A DNA stretch of 28,675 bases from a virus: the IMG/VR virus record IMGVR_UViG_3300031758_000427, positions 1-28,675 of that record. One strand, written 5' to 3'. Within the stretch, counting starts at the first letter, position 1; each line of letters opens with the position of its first letter. Position numbers and translations under genes: made by a program. Positions 3,052 to 27,437 of the stretch are shown piece by piece. Under the pieces are notes generated by a model that ran no database searches, had not been told where the DNA came from, and was given only the letters and a program-made list of their open reading frames with translations.

Positions 3052-4830
3052 ATGCTTGACCTTTCGTTCGATTCGATCCGCCGCGAGGTGGAGAGCGCGG
3101 AGCGATTCCGCGACACGCATCTGTCGTCGCTTCGGACGATGGTCGAGAAGTACCACGGTCCCGCGTTCAGAGATGACCGCTCGGACCCTTACATCGACGA
3201 TCCTGAGAACTTCGGACACGAGTATGTGTCGTTGGTGCTTCCCCGCATCATCCACGACACCCCGAAGTTCCGAGTGAAACTCGGTAACCCGATGCTCGAC
3301 CTCATGGTCGGCAAGCGGCTTCAGATCGCGATCAACAGGTGGTCCCGCATCACCAAGTTGCGTCGCACCCTTGAGCGTGTCGCGACCGACATGCTCTTCA
3401 CCTACGGCGTCGCGCTCACCGTGAGTGAGCCTCGACCCGAGGTCAGGAAGACGGACGGGAAGGAGCCGTATCTTCCCCGCGTCTACCGCATCTCTCCCGA
3501 GCGGTTCTTCATGGATCCCGCCGCGACCAACATCGAGGACGCGCGGTTCATGGGGCATTGCTACGCCATCGACAAGAACGACCTGATCTCCCGCGCCGAG
3601 CAGGACAAGAGTTACGACCTCGATGCGATCCTTTCGATCCCGTCGGGTACCGATCTCGACGAGGTGCGCGATGACAACGGGCGCGACATCGAGGACCGCA
3701 AGGAACTCGCCGTCTACGAGGTGTGGGTACCCGAGGCAGACCAGTCGCTCGCCGAGGAGATCGACGAGATCGCTGGCCCGGGCATGGTGAACGGCACCAT
3801 CTACACCTTCGTCAAGGGCCGTTCGAAGGCGAGCAAGTACGACGGATACATCCGCCGACCGATCCCGTACTTCGGCCCACGGCAGGGTCCGTACACCGTG
3901 TTCGGCGTCTACACCGTCCCCGATGATCCGTACCCGCTGTCGCCGCTCATGGCGATCCAGTCGCAGGTCGAGGATCTCAACGCCCACCTGACGAGCGTTC
4001 GATCGAGCGCCGCCGCCTACAAGCGGCTCGTCATGGTCGATGCGCGCAACGCCAAACTCGCGCAGGACATCAAGGACCGTCCGCACGACTACATCATCCT
4101 GTCCGAGTCGCTCGACAAGGACAAGGTGGTCAACCTTGAGGTCGGCGGCATCACCCAGCAGCAGGTGCAGTATTCGCAGATCGCTCAGGACCGCCTCGAC
4201 CGCGTGTCGGGCATCCACGACGCCATGCGAGGCAACATCTCGGGTTCGGCAACCGCCACCGAGGTCGCCGTCGCCGAGTCGAGCGCGACCATGCGCATGG
4301 CGCACCTCAAGCGCCAGTTCCAAGAGTCTGTCGATGACCTCGCTCGGTCAGTTCTGTGGTACATGTGGCACGACGATCGTGTCGCATTCCCACTCGGCCG
4401 CGAAGGTGCCGAGGCGTTGCTTGAGGCTGATCCCAAGTTCACGGGTGGCGTCAGAATGCCCGGTTGGGAGGATCTTGAGATCGCCGTCGATGCGTACAGC
4501 ATGGAGCGCGTCTCCGAGGCGCTCGTGCAGAAGCGCGCGATGGAACTTCTTCAGATCACCACAAGTGTGGCACAGGGCATGATGGCGATGCCGTTCATCA
4601 AGTGGCGCGAGATCCTGTCCGTGGTGGGCGACGCTCTCAACATGCCGCACCTCGCCGACATGATCGATCAGAACGCGATGATGCAGCAGGCACAGATGGC
4701 GCAGGCCGCACAGGCTGGGTCGATGCCCAGTTCGCAAGGCGGTCCTCCGATGAACGCGATGGGCGAGCCAAGCCCGATCCCCGCAAGCAGCATGGCTGGC
4801 CTACAGGCCGCCGCAAACAGGGCGATGTGA
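3052..4830 (+). CDS. Portal protein (head-tail connector)
   Basis: This is a 592-residue protein. In the virion it would form the dodecameric ring at one head vertex, through which terminase packages DNA and to which the tail attaches. The size fits portals of short-tailed phages (about 500-700 residues). Visible portal-type features include the N-terminal YxxxVLPRIIHD region, a wing region with PERFFMDP (about 145), SPLMAIQSQVEDLNAHL (about 295-315), and a GSATATEVAVAES segment (about 398-410) followed by a long helix with SVLWYMWHDD. That Ala/Thr-Glu segment and the following helix are common in phage portals. The C-terminal 50 residues are rich in M, Q and A (the barrel or tail). It is followed by a small gene, then scaffold and capsid, the classic head order. 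The family match is by pattern and context. Confidence 0.85.
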   Translation: MLDLSFDSIRREVESAERFRDTHLSSLRTMVEKYHGPAFRDDRSDPYIDDPENFGHEYVSLVLPRIIHDTPKFRVKLGNPMLDLMVGKRLQIAINRWSRITKLRRTLERVATDMLFTYGVALTVSEPRPEVRKTDGKEPYLPRVYRISPERFFMDPAATNIEDARFMGHCYAIDKNDLISRAEQDKSYDLDAILSIPSGTDLDEVRDDNGRDIEDRKELAVYEVWVPEADQSLAEEIDEIAGPGMVNGTIYTFVKGRSKASKYDGYIRRPIPYFGPRQGPYTVFGVYTVPDDPYPLSPLMAIQSQVEDLNAHLTSVRSSAAAYKRLVMVDARNAKLAQDIKDRPHDYIILSESLDKDKVVNLEVGGITQQQVQYSQIAQDRLDRVSGIHDAMRGNISGSATATEVAVAESSATMRMAHLKRQFQESVDDLARSVLWYMWHDDRVAFPLGREGAEALLEADPKFTGGVRMPGWEDLEIAVDAYSMERVSEALVQKRAMELLQITTSVAQGMMAMPFIKWREILSVVGDALNMPHLADMIDQNAMMQQAQMAQAAQAGSMPSSQGGPPMNAMGEPSPIPASSMAGLQAAANRAM

Positions 4831-6007: not shown

Positions 6008-7348
6008 ATGCCTTCGATTCAGACCTTCAACGACTTTATGACCTCGACTGGCCCGTCGTATCTGACGAGCGCCGACGCGGTCATCAACGAGGCCGTCAAG
6101 AACACCTACGCCTTCAGCCGCCTCCTGAAGGGCAAGACCCGCGAGCAGACCATTCAGGGTGGTACCGAGATCCGCGATGTCATCATGTTCGATGACTCGC
6201 GCACCTACGACCACTACCAGCCGAACGACACCTTCGTGTGGCGCAACCCGCAGGTCACCGACTATGTGCGCGCGCCGTGGCGCTTCCACATCGACCACAT
6301 GTCGTGGACCGACGCTGAGGTCGAACTCAACACGGGCGAGACCGCTGCCAGCACCAAGGTCGCCTACAAGCGGCTGAAGCGCATCAAGGAGCAGCGGATG
6401 TGGACCTCGATGCTCAACGGATTCGAAGAGGATCTGTGGGCTGTCCCGTCCGTCACGGGCATGGAGGACGAGAGCGGCAAGTTGCCGTACTCGCTTCCGT
6501 ACTTCATCAGCGAGGTCTCCACGCAGTTCGGCGGCGCTCTCGGCCGTCGTGGTACTGCTCCGTACACGGCCAGCACCAACACGGCCCACACGGTCATGCG
6601 CATCTCTCCGTTCACGGAGAACCGCTGGTCCAATGTCGTGGAACTGTACAACTGCAAGACCGATGCGCTGACGCCTCTCGGTCCTGACTGGGGCAAGGTC
6701 ACGGCCCAGTCGCTGACCAACAACACCGTCTACTCGCAGCAGGGTCCGTCGGGTGCGGTCGCCACCACCCATCAGGTCGGCAATCTCTTCAACGCGATGG
6801 ATGTCATGTTCATGCGTCTGAAGTACGAGGCTCCGGCGACTCGCCAGCAGTACTTTGAGAACGACAACCTCAATCGGCAGATGATCCTCACCAGCCGACA
6901 GGGCGTTCAGAACTACCGCAACGCGCTCCGCCTCAGCAACGACACCCTCGTCTCGTATCAGGACGCTTCCTACAACAGCCCTGCATACGCTGGCGTCGAT
7001 GTCACCTACTGCTCGGACCTCGACAACGCGGCGATCTTCCCTGCTCACAGCGCCGCCGTGACTCAGAGCGCAACTGGCTACAACGGCGTGACGGCTGCCG
7101 CTGGAGCGTTCACGGGTTTCGGTACCGAGGACGGTACGAACACCATCGTCAAGGCTCCGCGCTACTTCTTCGTGAACGGCAACTACCTCACGCCGATCTT
7201 CCACGCGCGCCGCTACTTCAAGCAGCACGAGGTTCTCCGTCACCCGAACCAGCCGTTCACCTATGTCCAGCCCGTGGACTGCTGGTCGAACCTGTTCTGC
7301 AACAGCCGCCAGCGTCACGGCGTTGTCGCTCCGATCAATCTCACCTGA
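6008..7348 (+). CDS. Major capsid protein
   Basis: This 446-residue protein directly follows the scaffold gene and is preceded by a very strong ribosome binding site. The composition is that of a shell subunit: mixed alpha and beta, even charge, few cysteines and high GC3. The N-terminus (SIQTFNDFM, then LTSADAVINEAVK) is followed by a beta-rich E-loop-like region (EIRDVIMFDDSRTYDHYQPND) and by ETAASTKVAYKRLKRIKEQRM, which would be the start of the spine helix. The C-terminal part contains HARRYFKQHEVLRHPNQP. HK97-fold coat proteins of podoviruses have this length. No delta-domain or protease site is obvious. I rely on context, length and expression signals; I do not recall a named close family. 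Confidence 0.85.
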   Translation: MPSIQTFNDFMTSTGPSYLTSADAVINEAVKNTYAFSRLLKGKTREQTIQGGTEIRDVIMFDDSRTYDHYQPNDTFVWRNPQVTDYVRAPWRFHIDHMSWTDAEVELNTGETAASTKVAYKRLKRIKEQRMWTSMLNGFEEDLWAVPSVTGMEDESGKLPYSLPYFISEVSTQFGGALGRRGTAPYTASTNTAHTVMRISPFTENRWSNVVELYNCKTDALTPLGPDWGKVTAQSLTNNTVYSQQGPSGAVATTHQVGNLFNAMDVMFMRLKYEAPATRQQYFENDNLNRQMILTSRQGVQNYRNALRLSNDTLVSYQDASYNSPAYAGVDVTYCSDLDNAAIFPAHSAAVTQSATGYNGVTAAAGAFTGFGTEDGTNTIVKAPRYFFVNGNYLTPIFHARRYFKQHEVLRHPNQPFTYVQPVDCWSNLFCNSRQRHGVVAPINLT

Positions 7349-9404: not shown

Positions 9405-9495
9405 CGGTCAATGGACCCTGTCCGCCAACAGCATCGAGTTGCCTGAAGGCATGTACATCGTGCCTCCGAGGTTCGTCGAGGAAGGTGAACAATGA
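9262..9495 (+). CDS. Outer-membrane lipoprotein, o-spanin-like
   Basis: This is a 77-residue protein in a frame different from the overlapping upstream gene. It has a lipoprotein signal: a hydrophobic stretch (WIVIVFVVAALAF) followed by the lipobox-like ASGC with the acceptor Cys at residue 20. A second Met at residue 3 (9268) would serve equally well. The mature part is about 58 residues: AVFIPDQSPIRLGPGIKGRVW, then a DGQWTLS strand and ELPEGMYIVPP. The pattern (VFIPDQSP-R-GP, W-L, PEG-YIVPP) is characteristic of small phage lysis lipoproteins. It would be anchored in the outer membrane and complete disruption of a Gram-negative envelope. No Shine-Dalgarno sequence is evident, so translation probably couples to the overlapped gene. 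Confidence 0.7.
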   Translation: MLMWIVIVFVVAALAFASGCGSRAVFIPDQSPIRLGPGIKGRVWMLVDGQWTLSANSIELPEGMYIVPPRFVEEGEQ

Positions 9496-10655
9496 CCGCG
9501 AAGATCCAAGTCCGACGCGACACGACCACGAACTGGAATGCTGGCACCCCTCCGACCCTTGATGTCGGCGAGATCGGCCTCGACACCACGCTGAAGCAGA
9601 TCAAGATCGGCGATGGGTCGAGCAACTGGACGGCGCTTCCGTGGCTCGGAGGCACGCTGCCCTACTTCTCATCCCCGAACGCAAACATCGATGACTCGTC
9701 CCTTCGCGTTCCCGGCGTGTACCGATGGGCTGGCATCGCGTCAATCACATCGGGAACAGTTCCCGCCGCTCCGATCGACATCAAGGCGGCGGACGGCGGC
9801 ATCAACATGCTTGTCCTCGCGTTCGGTGCCGTCGTGCTTCAGCATCTGTGGACCGACGGAGATGGAACACAGCCGCAGAAGTCGTTCACACGCATCTACG
9901 ACACCGCATACAGGGCTTGGACTCCGCAGAACATTTGGGGTGTCAGCGCGACCGAGGGCGTCGATGTCGTTGCCAAGAGCATCACGCTCAAGGACACGGC
10001 TACCGGACTGACCGTTGATGGGAACTCGACGCTGACGGGCAATGTCACGGTCAATGGCACGACCACGCTCGGAAACGCCAACGCCGACATCGTCACGGTG
10101 CAGGCTGGAACGGTTTCGGCTCCGATCATCACTACTACTGGCGATACCAACACGGGTATCTATTTCCCGGCAGCCGACAAGGTTGCGCTTGCCGCCGGAG
10201 GTGCCGATCAGTTGGTTGTTGACAACGGTGCGGCTGATGTTCTTGCTGCAATCTTCAGGAAGGGCGCGACCCTGAATGAGCGGTTGGACATGAACAACTT
10301 CCGCATCATCGATGTGGCAAACCCAACTCAACTCACCGACGCGCTCAACTGGCAGACGCTGCTTTCCCATCTCGCGTTCATCGAGGCGACCAATCTCGAC
10401 AACGGCACGACATTGACCGCACCCGGTGGATCGACATGGGCGATCTCGGGAATCAATGGCGGAGGTGGAACTGCAACCGCGACTCCCAATGGCGCTTACG
10501 CTGGATCTAGATGGGACGGAGTCATCATCGGATACAATGTAGGAACGGGAAATGTCGGCAACTCGTGGTGCAGGACATTCAGCAACTCCACAGCACCATC
10601 TGTAGGAGCGGTTGACTGCACGGCCATCATCATGGTCGCTGTCCGTAGATCGTGA
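9492..10655 (+). CDS. Tail fibre / receptor-binding protein with Mtd-type N-terminus
   Basis: This is a 387-residue protein coupled to the lipoprotein gene by ATGA, with GGAAGG upstream. Residues 1-55 (KIQVRRDTTTNW, then GEIGLDTTLKQIKIGDGSSNW) are the short beta module seen at the N-terminus of many phage fibres, including major tropism determinants and hyaluronidase-type tails. It is followed by WAGIASIT and repeated beta stretches (TGLTVDGNSTLTGNVTVNGTTTLGNANA) of the trimeric-fibre type, a GDTNTGIYFPA segment, and a receptor-tip-like C-terminus (SRWDGVIIGYN, then SWCRTF). The last 60 codons are less GC-rich than the neighbours, consistent with rapid exchange of the receptor-binding tip. 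No intramolecular chaperone peptidase was recognised. Confidence 0.75.
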   Translation: MTAKIQVRRDTTTNWNAGTPPTLDVGEIGLDTTLKQIKIGDGSSNWTALPWLGGTLPYFSSPNANIDDSSLRVPGVYRWAGIASITSGTVPAAPIDIKAADGGINMLVLAFGAVVLQHLWTDGDGTQPQKSFTRIYDTAYRAWTPQNIWGVSATEGVDVVAKSITLKDTATGLTVDGNSTLTGNVTVNGTTTLGNANADIVTVQAGTVSAPIITTTGDTNTGIYFPAADKVALAAGGADQLVVDNGAADVLAAIFRKGATLNERLDMNNFRIIDVANPTQLTDALNWQTLLSHLAFIEATNLDNGTTLTAPGGSTWAISGINGGGGTATATPNGAYAGSRWDGVIIGYNVGTGNVGNSWCRTFSNSTAPSVGAVDCTAIIMVAVRRS

Positions 10656-15893: not shown

Positions 15894-18800
15894 ATGACGC
15901 AGATGAACACGCAGACGCAGACGCAGATCGATCGCATTCGCGCTCGCGAGGCCGCAAAGGCCCGTGAACGCATGGCTGCGCAGGGAATCAAGATGTCATC
16001 TCCCGAAGCGACGGAGATGATGCAGTCTGCGCTGAGTCGAGCCGAAGACAGCGCGTGGAACGCTGCGTACAACAAGGCGATGAAGAACCTGTCCGAGATG
16101 GGAGTCCCGGGCATCGAGGTGATCACCAACGAAGATGACATCAAGTTGATCGGGTCTCCGTATGTCACGGCTGACGATGACATCGAGACCTACGCTCGGC
16201 TCGCTGCCGATCAGTTCACCAAGGGTATGACGCCTACCACTTGGGCCGATTACAACAAGAACAAGCGCGGAGTTGTCCCTGCGTCTTTCCAAGAGATGCT
16301 GGGAAGCGCGCTTGTCTCGTTCGAAGGCTCCGTCGGCATGGCTACGGCTGGCGCTTGGTCGGCGTGGGACATGTACGGCTATGGCGGAAAGATGTGGCAG
16401 GAAGGACCGATCACAGACGAACAGAAGATGCAGCACTTCGCTGGCATGATGGAGGCGCAGCAGACTGGATCAGAGTTCGCGCGGTATTTGTCCACGCCGT
16501 TTGAGTTGGGAAATGTCGCAGAGGAACTCGCTGGTCCTCCGGGCGAGCCTGTGCTTCCAAGCGAGCGGTTTGGAACTCCGGGTGGCGCAGTCGGCGAAAT
16601 GATTGTCAGCGAAGCGGGCAACATCGGTTCGGCGATTGGGTCGATGCCAATGTCAGGTCCGTCGATGCTTGCGCCGAATCCAGCGTTGCGTGCGGTAGCA
16701 ATGGTGCCATTCGCATTCTCGGGATACGGAGATGCGAAGATGGCTCGCTACGACATTTGGCGAGAGCAGGCTCAGATGGCGGAGTATCTCAAAATCGCTC
16801 CGCCTCCGATGCCATCGACTGGGGAGTTCGAAACATGGGGCGGCATCGGCGCAGCCTTTGAGGTCGGATCAGAGTTTGTCGGTGACACCGTTCAGGCTGG
16901 AGCGATCAAACTCGCTGGAGGAGGAAGGCTTGGACGCTGGGGTGGGTCTAGGTTCGTGACATTCATCGACACCTTGCAGGACAGCCTTGCAAGAACCCGT
17001 GGGCCTCTTGGAACAGCCAAGAGACTCGGCGTTGGAGTCGTGGTCCCGGGCGTGACAGAGGGCGCGGAAGAGTTCGTTCCTCACATCGGAGAGCAGGCTC
17101 AGGATCTTGCATCTGAACTGTTCACCCCCGACGATTCGTACTGGGAAGGATCCATCGACCGCGCGCTGTTCAGCGAGAACAGCCTGCACTCCGCCAAGGT
17201 TGGCGCGTACTCGGGCATGATCATGGGCGGCGGCGCGTATGTCGCCAGCCCGACTGCATTCAAGCGACGCAGGGAGGCGCGCGAGGTTGCGGCAGAGGCC
17301 CGCAAGGGAACCGCGTTCGTCACCGAAAGCATCATTGAGGGTCAGAAGACGGATGCGGCAGAACAGATCGCTCCATCTCCGAAGGCAAAGGCGACGCAGA
17401 GACAGCGCGCTCTTGAGAACTTCCGACGCAGCGTCGTTCCTACGCGCAGCAGCGCGATGGCGATGCACCATGTCGAGCAGTTGAGCGCGGGCAATCGAGG
17501 CGTGATGGTCATCGACCCCGCCGACATCGACACGACGCTGACGCCCGAGGTTCGTGAGCGGATGCGCGCACTCGGTATCTCGGAAAAGCCAATCGGGACG
17601 ATCGATGGCAAGAAGGTGTTCGCGGCCAATGGAGATGTCGCTCAGGTCATGGACATGATCAATGCTGGCGATTTCCAAGCCCTTGGCGGAAACCCGCTGC
17701 GCAACGACGGCCAGTTGATGATGGGAGCAGTTGTCCTGAAGGACGCTGGCGGCCGTGTTGTCGAGATCATGCCGTATTCCGATCCGACGCAGATGCACGC
17801 AGCCGCGCCATCGATCGCTGCATACGCGGCTCAGAACGGTCTTACTGTGTCGGCTGTCAATCACGAGACATCCGAGACCTATTCCGACATCAACGACTCC
17901 GTGCGTCGCGTTCAGGATGCCGACGCCGTGCAACTCGGTCTTCCGCAGCGCGAGCGTCAGGCTCCCACGAAGAGGGACACGAACCGAGGTGTTCGCGCTC
18001 TTCGTATGGACATCGAACGAGACGCAAAGGGGAGCAAGTCGAAGCGCAGGGCAAAGGCTTCGGATGCATTCACATCACCCTACCTCACAGCAGAGGAAAT
18101 CGGCGACGCTACAAATGGAGATGTGACCGTCACGGTCACGATGTCTCGTGTTGCCGACCAAGACCTGTCTGACGGAGAACGCAACCTCTCCAAGATGACG
18201 GACGCAAATGCGACCGTCCTCGACGGCAAGATCGTGTTCTCAATCAAGCAGAAGGATGGATCGGTCAAGACGGTCGAGAAGCCCGTGCGCATGGATGGCG
18301 TCTATCTCCCGCAGGTTTCACCTGACGGGATCTTCCTGATGCGCGAGAACGGCACAGCAATGACATCGCGCAGCGCGTTTGCCATTGCGCTTCACGAGAT
18401 GCGGCACCGCACGCTGTCTCGTTCGAAGAACGGCGCTCTGTACTTCGCGAAACTGCTCCAGTTGGATCCTGCCTACGCCATGCGTGGCGGAGCGCAGTAC
18501 ATGCGGCGATTGTTTGAGAACAAGTTCGCTGGGCAGAGCGATGCAAAGATCATCGCCTACTACCGTGGTCTCTACGAGGCAGCGCAGGCAGTTAGGCAGG
18601 GCGTCGCGACTCCCGAGCAGCAGCAGATGGTTGCTGGATCTCGTGTCGATGCGCAGGGACAGCCCATTGGCACGGTTGGATCCGCTCTGTCCGAGGTCCG
18701 CACCTTCTCGGAAGAAAGCGTCACGACAACCTCCAACCGAGCCTTCGGTCAGACGATGACCAAGGCCGCCGAGTGGGAAGGGATCTATCGAGACTCGCAG

Positions 18801-21800
18801 GAGAAGTCGTTCCGTCGGTTCTCGGCGTGGATGGCGAACGCGCTCGTCAAGAACGGCTTCGTCGGACCCGAGGCGCAGCAGGCGCTCTACGAGTTGCGCC
18901 AGCGTCTCGACAATGTCCGCGAAGAGGAGACCAAGATCCACCGCAAGTTCAGCGACACCGTCTCCGAATCGGTGCGAAAGGACTTGGAGACGGCAGCCCG
19001 CAGAGATCAGGCTCGTCAGGCTCTTCGCGGTGGTCAGCCCGCAGGCGCTGCGCCTGCTTCCACGCCGTCCGCAGCACCATCGACGGCTGTTTCTCCTTCT
19101 CTGCGCGAACCGAAGGCTCCGATTGGCATCAACACCATCGGAGGCGACGAAGACAAGCGCCAGCAGATCGAACAGGCGATCTCCGCCGTTCAGGAAGCGC
19201 AGAACGCGCCTCCCGAGCAGCGCGACAGCATGTTGGCGAACGCCATCGGGATGCTGACGCAGATTGCACCGCTTCTCACGCAGACTTCCGCCCAGTTGGC
19301 TCCGAGCAGCGGGGTCACTCGCCCGCAGATGCAGTCGCCGACAGCGCGCCGCATTCCCGAGGCCATGCGTGATGTCGCTCCTGCCGAGCCTGCTCCGCAG
19401 TTGGCTGGCGGCGTCGAACGGGCTGCGCCTGACCTTGAGGCTTCGGCCCGTCGGCAGCGCAACGCGCAGAACGCGATGGCGATCATGCGCGGCGAGACGC
19501 CGTCCGAGCCTGTCGATCTCGGAACGGTCTCCCGCATCGAGCGCGCACGCACATTCATGCAGGATCCCGAGGAGGAGATCCGCATGTCCGTCCGCGAGCG
19601 CCCCGGACGCCGCGAGGCGAACGACGATGTCCGCAGCATCCGCAATGCGTTCATGGAAGAGCGCGGCATCGAGCCTGAGCAGCGCATCGAGGACACCTAC
19701 GCCGAAGTGGATCCCGATTTCGCCAAGCGGCTTGCCGACTGGTTTGAGTCAACCGAAGTCGATTACAACGACCCGAAGATGCTCGCCGCGTACCGCCAGT
19801 TCGGCCGCGAGACGCTCGACCAGTACAACTACCTTCGCGAGAAGGGTTACGAGATGATCCCGTGGGCTGGCGAAGGCCAGCCGTATGCCGACAGCGCGGA
19901 CATGATCGAGGATCTCCGCACGAACAAGCGGCTGTTCTACTACAAGACGATCAACCCGCAGGAGCAGAACTCGTTCGGATCGAACCCGCAGGCGTTCCAA
20001 GAGGCGCTTCGCAAGAACCCGCTGCTGGAGGACGCTGGCGTCGAGGTTCTCGACAGCGAGGGCAACTCGTACCGTCAGACCTACAACGACCTGTTCCGTG
20101 GCGTGCATGACATCCTCGGCCACGGTGCAGAGGGCTTCCAGTTCGGCCCGCGCGGCGAGGAGAACGCCTACCGATCGCACGCGGTGATGTTCTCGCCGCT
20201 TGCCCGTCAGGCTATGGCGACGGAGACCCGTGCGCAGAACTCGTGGGTGAACTACGGGCCGAACCGCCGCAACCCTGACGGGTCGGTGTGGGGTCAGGAA
20301 GACCCCCGATACGGACCGTGGCTTGATCGGCTGAAGAATGGCGAAGGCTACGCCGATCAGAAGCCGATTCTCACGCCGCCCGAGTTCCTCGGCCTGTACT
20401 CGATCCGCGATCAGGCGTCGGGCAGCGATGCGATTTCTGAGCCGTTCTACCACGCTGTGATTTCCGATGGACTCGGTTCCGAATCGCGCATTGTCGGCAA
20501 CACAAGGAAGTTCAAGACATTCGACGAGGCGCGTGAGGCGGCAAAACTGTACGAGCAGCAGTCACGCGAGCCGTTTGTCGATGTGTTCCGCGTGGATGGT
20601 GGTCGCGGTGCTGTTGTTGATGGACAGCGGGACACGCAGCCTGCCAATGACGAGCGCCCTGTGGCATGGATGACGAGTCCGACATCCGCTCGATACTCCA
20701 AGCGCGACGAGAAAGCAAAGCCAGCCAAGGCAACGCGCAAGCCAGCCAAGACAGCCGAGGAGAAGCGCGCTGCGGCAGCGGCGGCCGCGCAGAAGCGCGC
20801 GCAGGCAGCGATCGCCCGTCGCAATGCCAAGGACCGCGCCGCCATCGACAAGGCTCCGAAGATCAGCATCAGCGCGGAGCCGACGGCGCAACCGTTTGTG
20901 TCGAAGCACATCATCGTGCCTGCGATGAAGAAGGACAAGACCTTCTCCAAGGCCAAGGCATACGCCCGCGCTCACGCGCGTGCGCTGGTGCTTCTCGACA
21001 ACAGCAAGTTCATCGGTCAGGTGAACGCGCTCGTCAGTCGCATCGCTCCCGATGTGCCATTCAACTTCGGGAAGAAGGCCATCGACGAGGTCAAGGGCAA
21101 CTTCGCGGGCAGGAACGAACGCGCCATGCGCATCTCGATCGATGGGCTGACCCACGATCAGAATGTCTCGGTCGCGCACCTACTCGGTTCGCTCATGCTT
21201 CAGGAGGCCGTGATTGTTACTGGCCCTGCGACGGCGGAGACTCCTGCCGCAGAGCAGAGTTTGTCCGTGATGTTGTTCACGGATTCCACCGAACCACTTG
21301 CTGCTCGCCAACTGGATCGCATACTCTCCGATCTCGGCAATGCTGTGAACGGAGCCACCACGCACGAAAGTGGTCGTGGCGTTTGGGCGGTTTGGTCTCC
21401 ATACGAGGGCAACCCACTCACCGAAGCGGATTTCGTCGCGAAAGCCAAGCAGGTTGCGGCCCAGCACGGGCTGTCGTTCGAAACGACTAGGGTCCGCAGC
21501 ACCTACAAGCAGATTGGAGATTCCGATGTCTTGGGCCGTATTTCAGAAGGTCTGCGAGGAGCAGGGCGTGAAGATCGTGGAGAATCCGTGGTGGGCGGCT
21601 GGGATCTATGGGTCCAGCCTGCTGCCACAGTCGCCGAAGGGCTTCAAGACGAAGGATTCCAACTCGACATCGCAGGATGGGCTGAACGAGTCGCTGGCCC
21701 CCAAGAAGGCCCAGCGGTCGCGAACGCGATCATCGAAGAACTCGCCAAGCGCGCCACCGAGCGAAAGCATGGACTCGACCCAAGGTTCCTGACGCGGTAC

Positions 21801-24800
21801 GAAGGCAACATGCAGAAGATCGAGGCTGGGTCGAAGATCCCAGCCACGACTACCGCAGAGAATGCCGAGGACTCGTTCAGGGAGGTCGATGCGCTGCTCG
21901 CGCGGCATCCGAATCCGTTTGAGTCGGAGCAGTCGTACCAGCGTTTCCTCGCCGACATGTACGGCGAGCGGACGATTCCGATTTCTCCTTCGCATCTGAT
22001 CGAGCGGATGCGCGACAACTTCGCGGGCATGAAGGCCGACATGCAACTGCGCGAGGACGGCGGACGCCTCACGCACAAGATGATCGACGATGCCATCCAC
22101 GGGCTTGAGATGGCGCAGCGCCTGCGTGCGCTCTACGCGGCTGGCAAGGTGCAGCCCAAGCACACCGTCGCGCTCGCGATGTGGGGCTTCCTGTCGCGCG
22201 GAGTTTCTCCGTACATTCAGGAGAGCCTGTTCCTCGACATCGTGAACTTCCGAGCGAAGAACGGCCGCACATACGGCGACTTCGTGGACATCGCGGTCAA
22301 CTCTGCTTGGGAGCCGAAGAAGCACAACGCGGAGTGGAAGCAGTTCATCGAGGAGTTGTTCGATGTGATGAAGTACCCGCGCATCAAGAGCGACGGGACC
22401 ATCGCGACGGACAAGAATGGCAAGACCATCTACGAGAGCGAAAGCCCCGGCTCGGGCGCGAAGCACAACGCGAACGCATTCGGACGCAACTTCCTCGCGA
22501 ACATCGGCAAGACGGTCACCATCGGCGGGAAGACGCAGACTGGCCTGCTGCACTTCCACAATGCGATCGGCGACCCGAATGTCTCGGGCAAGCAGGTGCG
22601 ACGCATCTTCGCGAGCATCGGCGAGTCTCTCGGCATCGACAACAAGGTCGTTTCGTTCGCGTGCCTCGTCGCTGGCAAGACGGACATCTCCGTCAACGAC
22701 CGCGTGCGCATCGGAGATCACTACAACCGCGACGGCAGGTATCCGAACGCCTACGACGGATTCACGATCGGCTACGAGGTGATCGTCGAGAACACCGTGA
22801 CTGGCTATGTCGAGATGCCGATCGAGTGGAACCCTGATGATGGAACATCCGAGGAGTTCGCCGAGGCATACAAGGCTGCGATCGAGGACGAGAAGGCAAA
22901 GACGGAGCCGATGAAGGGAGAGGGCCGCAACTTGGTTGCCGAGCGTCGCGCCGCCGCGATCAAGCGTTATGGCTCGATGGAGAACGCTCCCGAGTTCCGC
23001 AAGGACTTCCTGTCTCGGCTGATCGACAAGGGATACCTCGACTCATCGAAGTACAAGGTCACGATCGCACCCGTGAAGGCTGGTGGTCTTGCCAGCATGT
23101 TCGATGGCGCTCGCGGCATCGCCTACTACGAGGCGACCGAGCGCGCGATCGATCCGAATGTGGTGTTCTCCGAGATCATCAAGAAGCGTCCCGACCTCAT
23201 CCCCTACGCGCATCATGGCGCGGAGCATTGGCTGAACTGGACGGGCGCTTCGGGTCAGGAGGCCAGCCACAAGACGCTCGACGGCCTCATCGAGATGATC
23301 TCTCGCGGAGAGGATCGCATTGAGGGCGTGTGGGCGAAGGAAGGACGGTACGACACCTACGCCTTCAACGCCGAGTACGGGTTCGTCTCGGAGAACGGTG
23401 ATCTCGTTCGCAAGTACAAGTACGAGATCAACGGCAACACCTACATGATGACGCCGAAGAACTTCGACAAGTTCATCACGGCGGTAACAGACTTCGACTG
23501 GGCTGGACTCAACTGGAAGAAGGCTCCGAAGACGAAGAAGCCGCAGTTCCGAGTCACGACCGACTCGGTGAGTGGTTCCGACCGTCAGACCCCGTGGTAC
23601 GACGATGCGCTCGTCGGTCAGAAGGGCAAGGACAAGATCGAGGAGTTCGCCAAGGAGTTCGGCACGCGGATGTCGCTCCGAGACATGCCGAACGAGGATG
23701 CTCTCGATGCGTTCGCGACTGCGTTCGTGGATTCGTTGAGAAAGAACCCGATTCCACAGGTTGTCTCGTCGGTTCCCGAGAACAACGAGGTCATGCGCGA
23801 GTTCGCGCGGCAGAACATCGCCGCACAGACGCACGAGCAGGCGTATGAACTCTACAAGCGCATGGTCGAGCAGAAGTTCCCGAAGCCGACCATCGCACGC
23901 TACACGATGTACTTCGACAGGAACAACGCCCTGAACGGGATCGTTCCGAACGATGTGTGGTGGCACGGCGGCGGCAGGCAATGGACAACGCCGAACTACG
24001 ACATCAGCCCGAACCAGTTCGGACTGCACATCGGCAACTTCAATCAGGCGTCGTTCTTCTTCCGACGCGCGATTCAGAACACGAGGTGGCAGGAGAACCC
24101 AGTCACCACTCCCGTGATGTTCCCGCTGTATGCCCGTGCTTTCAAGACGATCGAGATCCCTGATCAGGGTTCGTGGGAGCCTGAGCGAATACTGAAGGGT
24201 ATGCGCGAGGTCGGCCTGATCGACATCGGCGAGCAGCGACAGGTTCTGACTGACATGTACGCTTCTGTGTCCGCGAAGTCACCTTCAAACTCGGATGAGA
24301 ATGGTTGGCAGGTGTTACTGAACGGATCGACGGTGCTGAACATTTTCGACGAGTCAGACGCTGCCAAGATGCGTGACTGCAACATTTGGCTGCGCGAGTG
24401 GCTTGCCGAGCGCGACATCGACGCCATTCGGTATCAGAACTACATCGAGGGTCAGACTCGATCCGACTTCATGGAAGAGCCGAGCATGTTCGGCATCGAG
24501 ACCGAGGCGAAGGAGAAGTACAGGAAGGACTGGGAGCGCAAGGAATACGATTTCGCCGACTGGATGATCAGCGCGCCGAGGACGGACGGGACCGTTGACA
24601 AGCGGCTTGTGATGGAGAAGAAGAAGGAAATCTTCGGCGACCTGAGCAGCATCATCGTGTGGAACACGGGTCAGGTGAAGAGCGCGTCTGCCGACGATGT
24701 CGGCTTCAGAACCTCGATGTCCGACATCAGGGCTTCGATGCGCCATCAGCCTCCTGCCGTGGTCAACATGTACCCCGAGGTCTTCAGCAGCGACGAAGCG

Positions 24801-27437
24801 CGTTACTCGCAGCGCGATGGACTGGCTGGAAGAGCGGATGCGGCCACCGTGGCGTTCATCGATCAGTACGACCCGCTCCGTCGGTACGGGGAGATCGCCG
24901 AGCAGACTCTTGGAGGCAGCCTTCCCGACATCGCGAACCCGTACCTTGGTCTGCGCGTGCTGTCGGGCCGTCTCGGATCGATGCAGCAGCAGGCGACTCG
25001 CGAGTACGCGACGATCCTGCGCGACATGCACGACCACAACATCGAACTGAACGAGATGGACGAGTTCCTGACCGCGCAGCACGCGCTGAACGGAGGAAAC
25101 GCCTACATCGCAGCGCACAACCCACGGTTCCCTGACGGCGGCACGGGCATGACCAACGCCGACGCGCAGGCTGTGATCATGCGCGCACAGGCTTCGGGTC
25201 GGTACGGAGACATGAACCGCATCGCCGAGGACTGGAGGCAGATGCTGCGCGAGGGTCTGCGCCTTCGTCGCGACGCTGGCCTCATCACCAACGAGACCTA
25301 CAACATCCTGACCACCCGCTACACGCACTATGTGCCGCTGCGCGGAGCGCCAGCGCGTCCGTTCGACGAGAACTTCGAAGACTTCGACTCGGGCGAGGTG
25401 TTCGGGCGCGGCATGTCCACGCAGGGCCGTGGTATGCCGAGGCGGTACGGCCGCGAGAGCCGCGCCGAGGGCGTCACCTCGCAGGTCGGCTTCCTCCACG
25501 AGGACACGATGCGCCGAGTCGCGCGCAACGAGATCGGGCAGCGTTTCCTCCGTCTCGTGATGCTCGTGAACGACCCGGGCATGGCTACGGTGGTCACGCC
25601 GAACCCGACGCGCATGGCCGATGTCAACGGCGTCTTCCGCCCCGTGTACGACGCGAACTGGATGAACAACCCACGCCACTTCGGCGTGTATGTGAACCAG
25701 CGCACGACGATCAACGGCGTGGACTTCGAACCCGGCGACCTCGTGGTCATCCACATCAACAACGCGCACCTCGCGGATGCGATCAACACGCCGAACGCGC
25801 AGTTGAGCCAGTTTGCGCAGGGTCTGCGCCATGTGAACAACACTTGGCGCTTCGTCACGACGGGCATGGGCAACCCGACCTTCGCCCCCGTGAACATGGT
25901 GCGCGATGTGAGTGCTGGAGCCATCAACAACATCGCCACGCACGGCCTGCGCGACACGGCGCAGATGCTGCGCAGGTACCCGCGCTCGTTCATCAATGTG
26001 TTCCGCGATGCGTGGCGCGACCCAAACAACCCGACGGGCATGTACCGTCGGTTCGTCGAGGCGGGCGGCGACCAGTTGTACTGGCGTCCGAACGACCTTG
26101 AGACGAAGAACACGGACTTCGATGCCCTCGCCGAGCGCGTGGCGCGTCGTGATCCGAACGACACTTCGCTCGCCCGCACGCTGTTCGGCTGGTACCCCGC
26201 GTTCTTCACGGCGGCCGAGACGGCGACTCGCCTCGCGCAGTTCGAACAGCGGCTCGCCACGGGCGCGTCAGCCGAGCAGTCGGCGCTCGCGGCCCGCGAC
26301 ATCACGGTGGACTTCGCGAAGGGCGGCAAGCGCAAGGCTGGCCTCAACACCTACTACATGTTCCTGAACGCGAGCATCCAAGGCTCGGTGAATGTCGCGC
26401 GCGCCATGACCCGTGGCCGTGGCATCGCTCCCGCGCTCGTGACCTTCGGCGCTGTCAGCGCGCTGATGGGACGCGCGCTCGGTGGCGAGGACGAAGAGAC
26501 CGAAGGCGATGTGTGGGACAACATCCCCGACTACGAGAAGGCATCGAACATCATCCTGATGGATCCGTTCGGAAGCGGCAAGTACATCAAGATCCCGCTG
26601 CCTTACGGGTACTCGACCTTCTACTCGGCAGGCGTGCGCATGGCCGACGCGGCGCTCGGAAAGGCTACCGCAGGCGACGCCGTCGCTGGCATGATCGCTG
26701 ACTCGCTGAACTCGTTCAACCCATTCGGCGGCAGCGGCATCAAGCAGGGAATCGGGTCCGTCGTGGCCGCGTTCGTACCGACGATGGCCCGCCCCGCGAT
26801 GGAGTTGGCGCTGAATCAGAACTGGATGGGCCGCCCCATCTACCCGAAGTCCTTCGGCAAGCAGGAGAAGGCGGACGCATACAGTTACTTCACGGGAACC
26901 CCCGAGTTCTACACGGAGCCAGCCCGAATCCTGAACGACGCGACGGGCGGCGACATGTTCGAAAGCGGCATGATCGACATGTCGCCGAACACCATGCAGT
27001 ACCTCGTGGGCTACTACCTCTCGGGTGCTGGCCGCACGGTCGATCGTCTCGCGAAGATGGCCGTCAGCGCCGAGCCGACGGAACTGTCGGACATACCGAT
27101 GCTGCGCTCGTTCGCTGGTGATGCCCGCAGCGACACGCGCTCCCTCTCGGAGCGTTACAACGCGATCGCGGCCCGCACCATGCCCGACATCAACAGGGCG
27201 GAGGCGCTGACGGATCCCGATGTCCCGCTCGATGTCAAGCAGGGCATCCGCGAGCGCGGGATCGATCGCACCAACATCGCCATCGGCAAGGTGGTAACCG
27301 CTGCCGATAAGAAGTTGCGCGAAGTCAATCAGCGGATGAAGGAGGCGACGCCTGAGCAGCGTGAACGGCTGCGCGAGGTGCGCGAGCGCGCGATGAAACG
27401 AGTGATTCGCGCGAGCAATCGCTTGACTCCTGACTGA
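15894..27437 (+). CDS. Giant polyvalent ejection-type protein, 3847 residues
   Basis: This is a single uninterrupted frame, four bases after the previous stop. Modules seen are as follows. About 1-455: helical, Gly-rich membrane-active segments (GVVVPGVTEGAEEF about 380; GAYSGMIMGGGAYVASP about 438-454). Residues 834-838: HEMRH, a zincin-type metal site. About 1046-1073: Pro/Ala linker. About 1269-1500: conserved phage module with HDILGH (1405-1410). 1606-1660: Lys/Ala linker. About 2000-2550: further conserved phage domains (SFACLVAGKTDISVNDRVR about 2252). About 2682-2937: ADP-ribosyltransferase-like module (WWHGG, AIRYQNYIEG, SIIVWNTGQVKS). About 2976-3847: LPD38-like C-terminal region (NMVRDVS about 3330; FLNASIQGSVNVAR about 3488). 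This mix matches the polyvalent proteins of phages, thought to be injected with the genome. R-x-S-x-R-D-like hexapeptides mark several boundaries. Domain limits are approximate. Confidence 0.85.
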   Translation: MTQMNTQTQTQIDRIRAREAAKARERMAAQGIKMSSPEATEMMQSALSRAEDSAWNAAYNKAMKNLSEMGVPGIEVITNEDDIKLIGSPYVTADDDIETYARLAADQFTKGMTPTTWADYNKNKRGVVPASFQEMLGSALVSFEGSVGMATAGAWSAWDMYGYGGKMWQEGPITDEQKMQHFAGMMEAQQTGSEFARYLSTPFELGNVAEELAGPPGEPVLPSERFGTPGGAVGEMIVSEAGNIGSAIGSMPMSGPSMLAPNPALRAVAMVPFAFSGYGDAKMARYDIWREQAQMAEYLKIAPPPMPSTGEFETWGGIGAAFEVGSEFVGDTVQAGAIKLAGGGRLGRWGGSRFVTFIDTLQDSLARTRGPLGTAKRLGVGVVVPGVTEGAEEFVPHIGEQAQDLASELFTPDDSYWEGSIDRALFSENSLHSAKVGAYSGMIMGGGAYVASPTAFKRRREAREVAAEARKGTAFVTESIIEGQKTDAAEQIAPSPKAKATQRQRALENFRRSVVPTRSSAMAMHHVEQLSAGNRGVMVIDPADIDTTLTPEVRERMRALGISEKPIGTIDGKKVFAANGDVAQVMDMINAGDFQALGGNPLRNDGQLMMGAVVLKDAGGRVVEIMPYSDPTQMHAAAPSIAAYAAQNGLTVSAVNHETSETYSDINDSVRRVQDADAVQLGLPQRERQAPTKRDTNRGVRALRMDIERDAKGSKSKRRAKASDAFTSPYLTAEEIGDATNGDVTVTVTMSRVADQDLSDGERNLSKMTDANATVLDGKIVFSIKQKDGSVKTVEKPVRMDGVYLPQVSPDGIFLMRENGTAMTSRSAFAIALHEMRHRTLSRSKNGALYFAKLLQLDPAYAMRGGAQYMRRLFENKFAGQSDAKIIAYYRGLYEAAQAVRQGVATPEQQQMVAGSRVDAQGQPIGTVGSALSEVRTFSEESVTTTSNRAFGQTMTKAAEWEGIYRDSQEKSFRRFSAWMANALVKNGFVGPEAQQALYELRQRLDNVREEETKIHRKFSDTVSESVRKDLETAARRDQARQALRGGQPAGAAPASTPSAAPSTAVSPSLREPKAPIGINTIGGDEDKRQQIEQAISAVQEAQNAPPEQRDSMLANAIGMLTQIAPLLTQTSAQLAPSSGVTRPQMQSPTARRIPEAMRDVAPAEPAPQLAGGVERAAPDLEASARRQRNAQNAMAIMRGETPSEPVDLGTVSRIERARTFMQDPEEEIRMSVRERPGRREANDDVRSIRNAFMEERGIEPEQRIEDTYAEVDPDFAKRLADWFESTEVDYNDPKMLAAYRQFGRETLDQYNYLREKGYEMIPWAGEGQPYADSADMIEDLRTNKRLFYYKTINPQEQNSFGSNPQAFQEALRKNPLLEDAGVEVLDSEGNSYRQTYNDLFRGVHDILGHGAEGFQFGPRGEENAYRSHAVMFSPLARQAMATETRAQNSWVNYGPNRRNPDGSVWGQEDPRYGPWLDRLKNGEGYADQKPILTPPEFLGLYSIRDQASGSDAISEPFYHAVISDGLGSESRIVGNTRKFKTFDEAREAAKLYEQQSREPFVDVFRVDGGRGAVVDGQRDTQPANDERPVAWMTSPTSARYSKRDEKAKPAKATRKPAKTAEEKRAAAAAAAQKRAQAAIARRNAKDRAAIDKAPKISISAEPTAQPFVSKHIIVPAMKKDKTFSKAKAYARAHARALVLLDNSKFIGQVNALVSRIAPDVPFNFGKKAIDEVKGNFAGRNERAMRISIDGLTHDQNVSVAHLLGSLMLQEAVIVTGPATAETPAAEQSLSVMLFTDSTEPLAARQLDRILSDLGNAVNGATTHESGRGVWAVWSPYEGNPLTEADFVAKAKQVAAQHGLSFETTRVRSTYKQIGDSDVLGRISEGLRGAGREDRGESVVGGWDLWVQPAATVAEGLQDEGFQLDIAGWAERVAGPQEGPAVANAIIEELAKRATERKHGLDPRFLTRYEGNMQKIEAGSKIPATTTAENAEDSFREVDALLARHPNPFESEQSYQRFLADMYGERTIPISPSHLIERMRDNFAGMKADMQLREDGGRLTHKMIDDAIHGLEMAQRLRALYAAGKVQPKHTVALAMWGFLSRGVSPYIQESLFLDIVNFRAKNGRTYGDFVDIAVNSAWEPKKHNAEWKQFIEELFDVMKYPRIKSDGTIATDKNGKTIYESESPGSGAKHNANAFGRNFLANIGKTVTIGGKTQTGLLHFHNAIGDPNVSGKQVRRIFASIGESLGIDNKVVSFACLVAGKTDISVNDRVRIGDHYNRDGRYPNAYDGFTIGYEVIVENTVTGYVEMPIEWNPDDGTSEEFAEAYKAAIEDEKAKTEPMKGEGRNLVAERRAAAIKRYGSMENAPEFRKDFLSRLIDKGYLDSSKYKVTIAPVKAGGLASMFDGARGIAYYEATERAIDPNVVFSEIIKKRPDLIPYAHHGAEHWLNWTGASGQEASHKTLDGLIEMISRGEDRIEGVWAKEGRYDTYAFNAEYGFVSENGDLVRKYKYEINGNTYMMTPKNFDKFITAVTDFDWAGLNWKKAPKTKKPQFRVTTDSVSGSDRQTPWYDDALVGQKGKDKIEEFAKEFGTRMSLRDMPNEDALDAFATAFVDSLRKNPIPQVVSSVPENNEVMREFARQNIAAQTHEQAYELYKRMVEQKFPKPTIARYTMYFDRNNALNGIVPNDVWWHGGGRQWTTPNYDISPNQFGLHIGNFNQASFFFRRAIQNTRWQENPVTTPVMFPLYARAFKTIEIPDQGSWEPERILKGMREVGLIDIGEQRQVLTDMYASVSAKSPSNSDENGWQVLLNGSTVLNIFDESDAAKMRDCNIWLREWLAERDIDAIRYQNYIEGQTRSDFMEEPSMFGIETEAKEKYRKDWERKEYDFADWMISAPRTDGTVDKRLVMEKKKEIFGDLSSIIVWNTGQVKSASADDVGFRTSMSDIRASMRHQPPAVVNMYPEVFSSDEARYSQRDGLAGRADAATVAFIDQYDPLRRYGEIAEQTLGGSLPDIANPYLGLRVLSGRLGSMQQQATREYATILRDMHDHNIELNEMDEFLTAQHALNGGNAYIAAHNPRFPDGGTGMTNADAQAVIMRAQASGRYGDMNRIAEDWRQMLREGLRLRRDAGLITNETYNILTTRYTHYVPLRGAPARPFDENFEDFDSGEVFGRGMSTQGRGMPRRYGRESRAEGVTSQVGFLHEDTMRRVARNEIGQRFLRLVMLVNDPGMATVVTPNPTRMADVNGVFRPVYDANWMNNPRHFGVYVNQRTTINGVDFEPGDLVVIHINNAHLADAINTPNAQLSQFAQGLRHVNNTWRFVTTGMGNPTFAPVNMVRDVSAGAINNIATHGLRDTAQMLRRYPRSFINVFRDAWRDPNNPTGMYRRFVEAGGDQLYWRPNDLETKNTDFDALAERVARRDPNDTSLARTLFGWYPAFFTAAETATRLAQFEQRLATGASAEQSALAARDITVDFAKGGKRKAGLNTYYMFLNASIQGSVNVARAMTRGRGIAPALVTFGAVSALMGRALGGEDEETEGDVWDNIPDYEKASNIILMDPFGSGKYIKIPLPYGYSTFYSAGVRMADAALGKATAGDAVAGMIADSLNSFNPFGGSGIKQGIGSVVAAFVPTMARPAMELALNQNWMGRPIYPKSFGKQEKADAYSYFTGTPEFYTEPARILNDATGGDMFESGMIDMSPNTMQYLVGYYLSGAGRTVDRLAKMAVSAEPTELSDIPMLRSFAGDARSDTRSLSERYNAIAARTMPDINRAEALTDPDVPLDVKQGIRERGIDRTNIAIGKVVTAADKKLREVNQRMKEATPEQRERLREVRERAMKRVIRASNRLTPD
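21526..21792 (+). CDS. Candidate overprinted small gene inside the giant gene
   Basis: This is an 88-residue frame, +1 relative to the giant gene, starting at an ATG with GGAG six bases upstream (21516-21519). The protein begins MSWAVFQKVCEEQGVKIVEN, continues with PWWAAGIYGSSLLPQSP, and ends in a Ser, Lys and Pro-rich tail. By hand count over the first 63 codons, third positions are G or C in 53 of 63 in this frame but only 28 of 63 in the giant frame, the reverse of the usual situation. The signal returns to the giant frame after about 21715. No family was recognised and there is no membrane segment. Either a real nested gene is expressed, or a once separate small gene has been absorbed into the giant frame. 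Confidence 0.5.
   Translation: MSWAVFQKVCEEQGVKIVENPWWAAGIYGSSLLPQSPKGFKTKDSNSTSQDGLNESLAPKKAQRSRTRSSKNSPSAPPSESMDSTQGS

Follow-up and report, generated by a model that had tools for sequence, protein, structure and literature searches.

The window is a viral contig of 28,675 bases. Its genes at 3052-4830 and 6008-7348 encode a portal or head-tail adaptor type protein and a major-head-type protein, respectively, and the product of 9492-10655 has a tail-fibre-like N-terminus; the gene order appears to resemble that of podovirus genomes. The first approximately 50 residues of the 9492-10655 protein matched phage tail-fibre N-terminal families and most of its remainder was unmatched, a pattern common in host-recognition proteins. 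A giant gene of 11.5 kb (15894-27437, plus strand) encodes a polyvalent-type phage protein of 3847 aa that carries LPD38 towards the C-terminus (Pfam, E=6.8e-41) and matches PHROGs 14770, 616 and 10691. The LPD38 domain in a protein of 3847 aa, together with fold matches to LPD proteins, places the product among the polyvalent (LPD) proteins, which are thought to be injected with the phage DNA at the start of infection (PMC5512222).

The region of the giant protein that hosts a putative nested gene is a domain of residues approximately 1694-1984 (20973-21845, plus strand). AlphaFold2 predicted this domain (mean pLDDT 76.7) as an alpha/beta ferredoxin-like region followed by a linker and two long helices, with a pLDDT below 50 in the linker (domain residues 190-205, giant residues 1883-1898). 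A fold search of the domain in the PDB returned ferredoxin-like designed proteins, none at E <= 0.001, and a search in BFVD matched LPD proteins. A host-domain HMM also weakly matched approximately 17811-17903 (giant residues 640-670, E approximately 0.2 or worse), and weak N-terminal matches of this kind were seen in the giants of the window, L021, L024 and L027; a diverged second copy of the host domain is a possible source.

The putative nested gene (21526-21792, plus strand) lies wholly inside the conserved giant gene in the +1 frame and extends for 88 codons from an ATG to a TGA stop ending at 21792. A Shine-Dalgarno-like GGAG (21516-21519, plus strand) precedes the ATG with a 6-nt spacer. 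The first-pass annotation had reported this start, the GGAG 6 nt upstream and the 88-codon +1 frame, all of which were exact when the sequence was rechecked, and its third-position G or C counts for the first 63 codons (nested frame 53/63, giant frame 28/63) were identical when repeated. Position-3 G/C in the giant gene as a whole was 77.6%, and the nested stretch had the largest (GC1 - GC3) difference among approximately 3785 overlapping 63-codon windows of the giant gene. The reported return of the bias to the giant frame after about 21715 was likewise borne out.

IMG/VR viral contigs were the sole source of related giants containing the region of interest. A downstream GIDNKV region was the basis for retaining 80 contigs, of which the host-domain HMM (window 20973-21845) recognised only a small subset. 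This subset, with the addition of L015 and L111, provided 12 contigs besides the window (L006, L007, L008, L009, L010, L011, L013, L014, L015, L016, L043 and L111), some of which are also present under other locus numbers. Host-domain identity to the window was 19-54% across the 12 contigs, and the number of independent lineages is below 13, L008 and L009 being near-identical. There was no match when the giant region was searched by tblastn against phage and plasmid records or when the distant-type domains were searched by tblastn against phage records, and a related-locus search with the window segment alone returned nothing. Genome contigs yielded two relatives of the downstream domain only, L101 and L102, with the host domain in neither; these GIDNKV domain relatives were located in metagenome-assembled Opitutae and Alphaproteobacteria genomes. 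A pattern match, L104, was discarded as a chance match in unrelated sequence.

A homologous +1 ORF was located at the same place in all 12 of the other contigs (13 of 13 with the window). The host domain was common to all 13 genes having the nested ORF, and the two had the same distribution among the contigs found. Conservation of the giant frame alongside a +1 frame gaining stops was looked for among the homologues and the opposite was seen, with both frames open and conserved. The switch of bias out of the giant frame and back could be explained by paired compensating frameshifts, evolutionary or from sequencing errors, with the true giant protein read in +1 over 21526-21715. However, the 12 other contigs were independently assembled and all repeat this arrangement, their giant frames being unbroken and aligned, which makes such frameshifts hardly credible. 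Giant-frame GC3 was depressed over the overlap in all nine of the GC3-rich genes examined, including the window (0.78 to 0.44), L015 (0.86 to 0.59) and L043 (0.83 to 0.59). The drop in the window was the most extreme of the nine, and the contrast in bias between the nested and giant frames was smaller in the relatives.

The start signals were also shared. The sequence GATTGGAGAnnnCGATGTCTTGG was exact in the window, L006, L007, L008 and L009, while L010 and L011 had GGAGG with CGATG, L111 had GGAG and an ATG opening the protein MSLEEH..., L013 had GGGAG before MNQ..., and L014, L015 and L043 had RBS-like 4-mers before the ATG. In total, an RBS-like 4-mer preceded the ATG in 11 of the 12 other contigs, the exception being L016. 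The window and its seven near relatives all had GGAG at the corresponding position, and the giant Gly codon at this site was GGA in 7/7 aligned genes though GGA accounts for 11-31% of their Gly codons. In five of six genes, codon-shuffled versions had more structure in the start region than the real sequence (P 0.012-0.064); the exception was the window, where the nested start region was not unusually open relative to codon shuffles. The +1 frame of the window is open further upstream to a GTG at 21370, giving 140 aa. This longer start was ruled out as the upstream +1 sequence is not conserved and contains stops in relatives, with +1 conservation upstream of the ATG below the gene average and with several relatives interrupted by +1 stops at 4-35 codons before the ATG.

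A fixed test required an RBS-like 4-mer, an ATG within 8 codons and an open frame of 45 codons or more. It was passed by 12 of the 13 genes and succeeded at 0.4-3.6% of positions along the same giants. Codon shuffles that preserved the giant protein succeeded in 0.6-14% of cases, so that a pass carries little weight for one gene but much weight when many genes agree. L111, retrieved through the giant frame alone, was then checked for the nested ORF; its +1 protein passed this prospective test when scored with an HMM built from the seven near nested proteins (47.7 bits, E=7e-14). The near-relative HMM scored the L013 +1 ORF at 36 bits with 0/1000 codon shuffles as good, and shuffles were as good in 0/1000 cases for L014 and 3/1000 for L015. 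L016 (37/1000 shuffles as good) and L043 (165/1000) were not clearly recognised by this HMM.

Selection was compared across six non-redundant giant genes. Synonymous-site constraint between homologous giants, the check proposed in the first-pass annotation, had its strongest peaks of the whole giant at the nested ORF. The two strongest synonymous-conservation windows of 3813 were 21579-21653 and 21483-21557, inside the ORF or at its start, and a further window in the top five was 21702-21776. Sixteen 63-codon windows were open in +1 in all six genes, all of them at the nested ORF, and none was open in +2 in all six along the giants. Similarity in +1 exceeded the giant-frame expectation by 4.6 SD at the ORF, the next best place reaching 2.4. 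Shuffling of the first 63 nested codons gave z = 10.4, and by part the codon-shuffle z was 6.4 for codons 4-30, 6.7 for codons 31-45, 3.6 for codons 46-63 and 4.2 for codons 64-88. Codon shuffles ignore relatedness, which is accounted for by the rank within the gene, the more trustworthy control. Change at giant positions 1-3 was 0.46, 0.47 and 0.47 over nested codons 1-40, compared to 0.38, 0.33 and 0.57 gene-wide, so that the usual position-3 excess of change was gone. A simple OLGenie-like count of dNN/dNS, in which pairs were saturated, was mildly lowered, at 0.68 versus 0.84 gene-wide when every pair was used and 0.40 versus 0.82 for the window and L006; other windows reached similar uncorrected values. 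Purifying selection probably acts on both frames.

A chance alternate ORF in a GC-rich gene, with the +1 likeness a by-product of conservation of the giant protein, would draw on the giant motif G-D-x-D-V, which makes GGAG with ATG fairly likely (shuffle P 0.006-0.14), and on the many long alternate ORFs in the window. Giant-preserving codon shuffles, however, gave a +1 similarity of 0.36 +/- 0.11 with a maximum of 0.85 in 2000, versus 1.55 observed. The synonymous sites were most constrained exactly at the nested ORF and the prospective homologue in L111 passed, and a chance origin of the ORF is thus very unlikely.

Constraint on an RNA or DNA element, such as a structure or binding site, could also produce synonymous conservation without a protein. 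GGAG...ATGTCTTGG was invariant even at 21531, where a change can be silent in both frames, and the start region was predicted to form a weak consensus pairing with about 21640. The constraint nevertheless covers 88 codons with +1 open in all genes through indels, the consensus fold was weak with an unfavourable covariation term (+1.83), and no Rfam family was matched; an element of this type is a most improbable substitute for a coding sequence. In the RNAalifold prediction approximately 21522-21535 paired with approximately 21643-21656, a conserved CAAGACGAAGG-like stretch approximately 120 nt downstream, with little covariation and possibly by chance. The giant Leu codon TTG at 21531-21533 was invariant in 7/7 genes, although CTG is the commoner codon in most of them and a TTG to CTG change at 21531 would alter neither protein; L111 has TTT (Phe). 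A preference for A/T in the second nested codon, or a further signal, may account for the invariant TTG.

The first-pass annotation had posed two alternatives, a nested gene under selection or a stand-alone small gene that was captured by the giant and is now read in a second frame as giant protein, which would have given giant residues 1878-1941 a novel sequence. Capture would fit the codon bias of the window, with 53/63 codons ending in G or C in the nested frame against 28/63, and the poor conservation of giant residues approximately 1881-1900. However, in all relatives the giant frame was conserved to either side of the overlap and along most of its length, including IGDxDVLG, WxxWVxxAA, DEGFDI and GW, and because of this conservation the capture of a foreign gene is quite unlikely. 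In addition, a tblastn search of phage records with the first 63 residues gave one meaningless match (E=8) and no stand-alone copy. Giant-frame conservation was poor only at residues approximately 1881-1900, including the predicted disordered linker, so the proposed novelty holds for this short stretch while the remainder of residues 1878-1941 is conserved in homologues.

The nested gene under selection, by comparison, gained strong comparative support from the conserved ORF, its start signals and the synonymous constraint, and the ORF at 21526-21792 is very probably a real overprinted gene. It would belong to the already known kind of gene overprinted out of frame, with a product that is undescribed. 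The conserved signals suggest that the internal GGAG on the giant mRNA would bind ribosomes and that initiation at the ATG at 21526 in the +1 frame would yield an 88-residue microprotein, while other ribosomes would continue across the overlap in the giant frame. The nested gene would begin over the flexible giant linker, which underlies nested codons approximately 6-21 and where the giant frame appears to tolerate change, and would continue beneath two giant helices, where the sequence would have to satisfy both frames.

The best-conserved core of the nested gene is its 5' part (codons 1-45, 21526-21660, plus strand), with the pattern MSW...helix...GIxGSxLLPxS...K. The 3' part (codons 46-88, 21661-21789, plus strand), where constraint was weaker yet present, encodes the Ser/Thr/Lys/Pro-rich tail that follows the GxGSxLLPxS-type core. 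The structure prediction for the nested protein was poor (pLDDT 60); a short N-terminal helix at residues 3-12 was the sole part with fair confidence, and the tail was without confident structure and is probably disordered. Searches of Pfam and PHROGs with the nested protein gave no matches. A transmembrane segment was absent, the highest 19-residue Kyte-Doolittle mean among twelve homologues being 0.98, and no lipobox or lipoprotein signal was seen on reading the nested homologue sequences. The product is predicted to be a small soluble protein, and the lack of a transmembrane segment, and of an apparent lipoprotein signal, excludes lysis proteins of the phiX174 E and lambda Rz1 types. Tentatively, the product may be co-produced with the giant protein and act as its partner or regulator; a peptide for host takeover or anti-defence has about the same likelihood. 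A partner or regulator would fit the finding that the nested gene occurs strictly together with one giant domain, although the overlap by itself would also give co-occurrence.

Out-of-frame nested phage genes with internal initiation include phiX174 E inside D and lambda Rz1 inside Rz. The E and K proteins of phiX174 have been described as de novo overlapping proteins (PMC8227390) and Rz/Rz1 are spanins (PMC6139136). The gene described here is similar in that a complete short gene with a start signal of its own lies out of frame within another gene, and selection apparently acts on both frames. It differs in its host, an 11.5-kb polyvalent-type gene rather than a small lysis or capsid gene, and in a product that lacks the transmembrane segment or lipoprotein signal of those proteins. 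The giant shares LPD38 with the LPD polyvalent proteins of Iyer et al. 2017 (PMC5512222), and the predicted fold of its host domain resembles other Caudovirales LPD proteins. A difference is the nested gene, an addition found only among those giants that carry the domain at 20973-21845; the word "overlap" is absent from the main text of that study (PMC5512222). In-frame nesting is known from phage Ms6, in which an endolysin is embedded in lysA (PMC3111421). There, as would be the case here, an internal start gives two products from one phage gene, but the frames differ here and the two products would therefore share no sequence.

Annotation pipelines normally discard ORFs within longer genes, and nested genes of this kind in large phages are missed for this reason. 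The comparative support obtained here is at the level used for overlapping genes of small viruses, and the gene persists through deep divergence. The codon-bias frame switch that flagged the nested gene was weaker in the GC3-rich relatives and could serve as a screening signal. Its host protein, moreover, is of a giant class for which injection at the onset of infection has been proposed (PMC5512222). A more specific reading, which we regard as doubtful but possible, is that the product represents an undescribed microprotein family that occurs only overprinted within one domain of polyvalent giants, is kept down to approximately 19-22% domain identity and forms an obligate functional pair with the giant. 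If true, the microprotein might, for example, control packaging, processing or activity of the giant protein. The nested ORF provides a concrete protein to test, and giant phage genes may conceal more genes.
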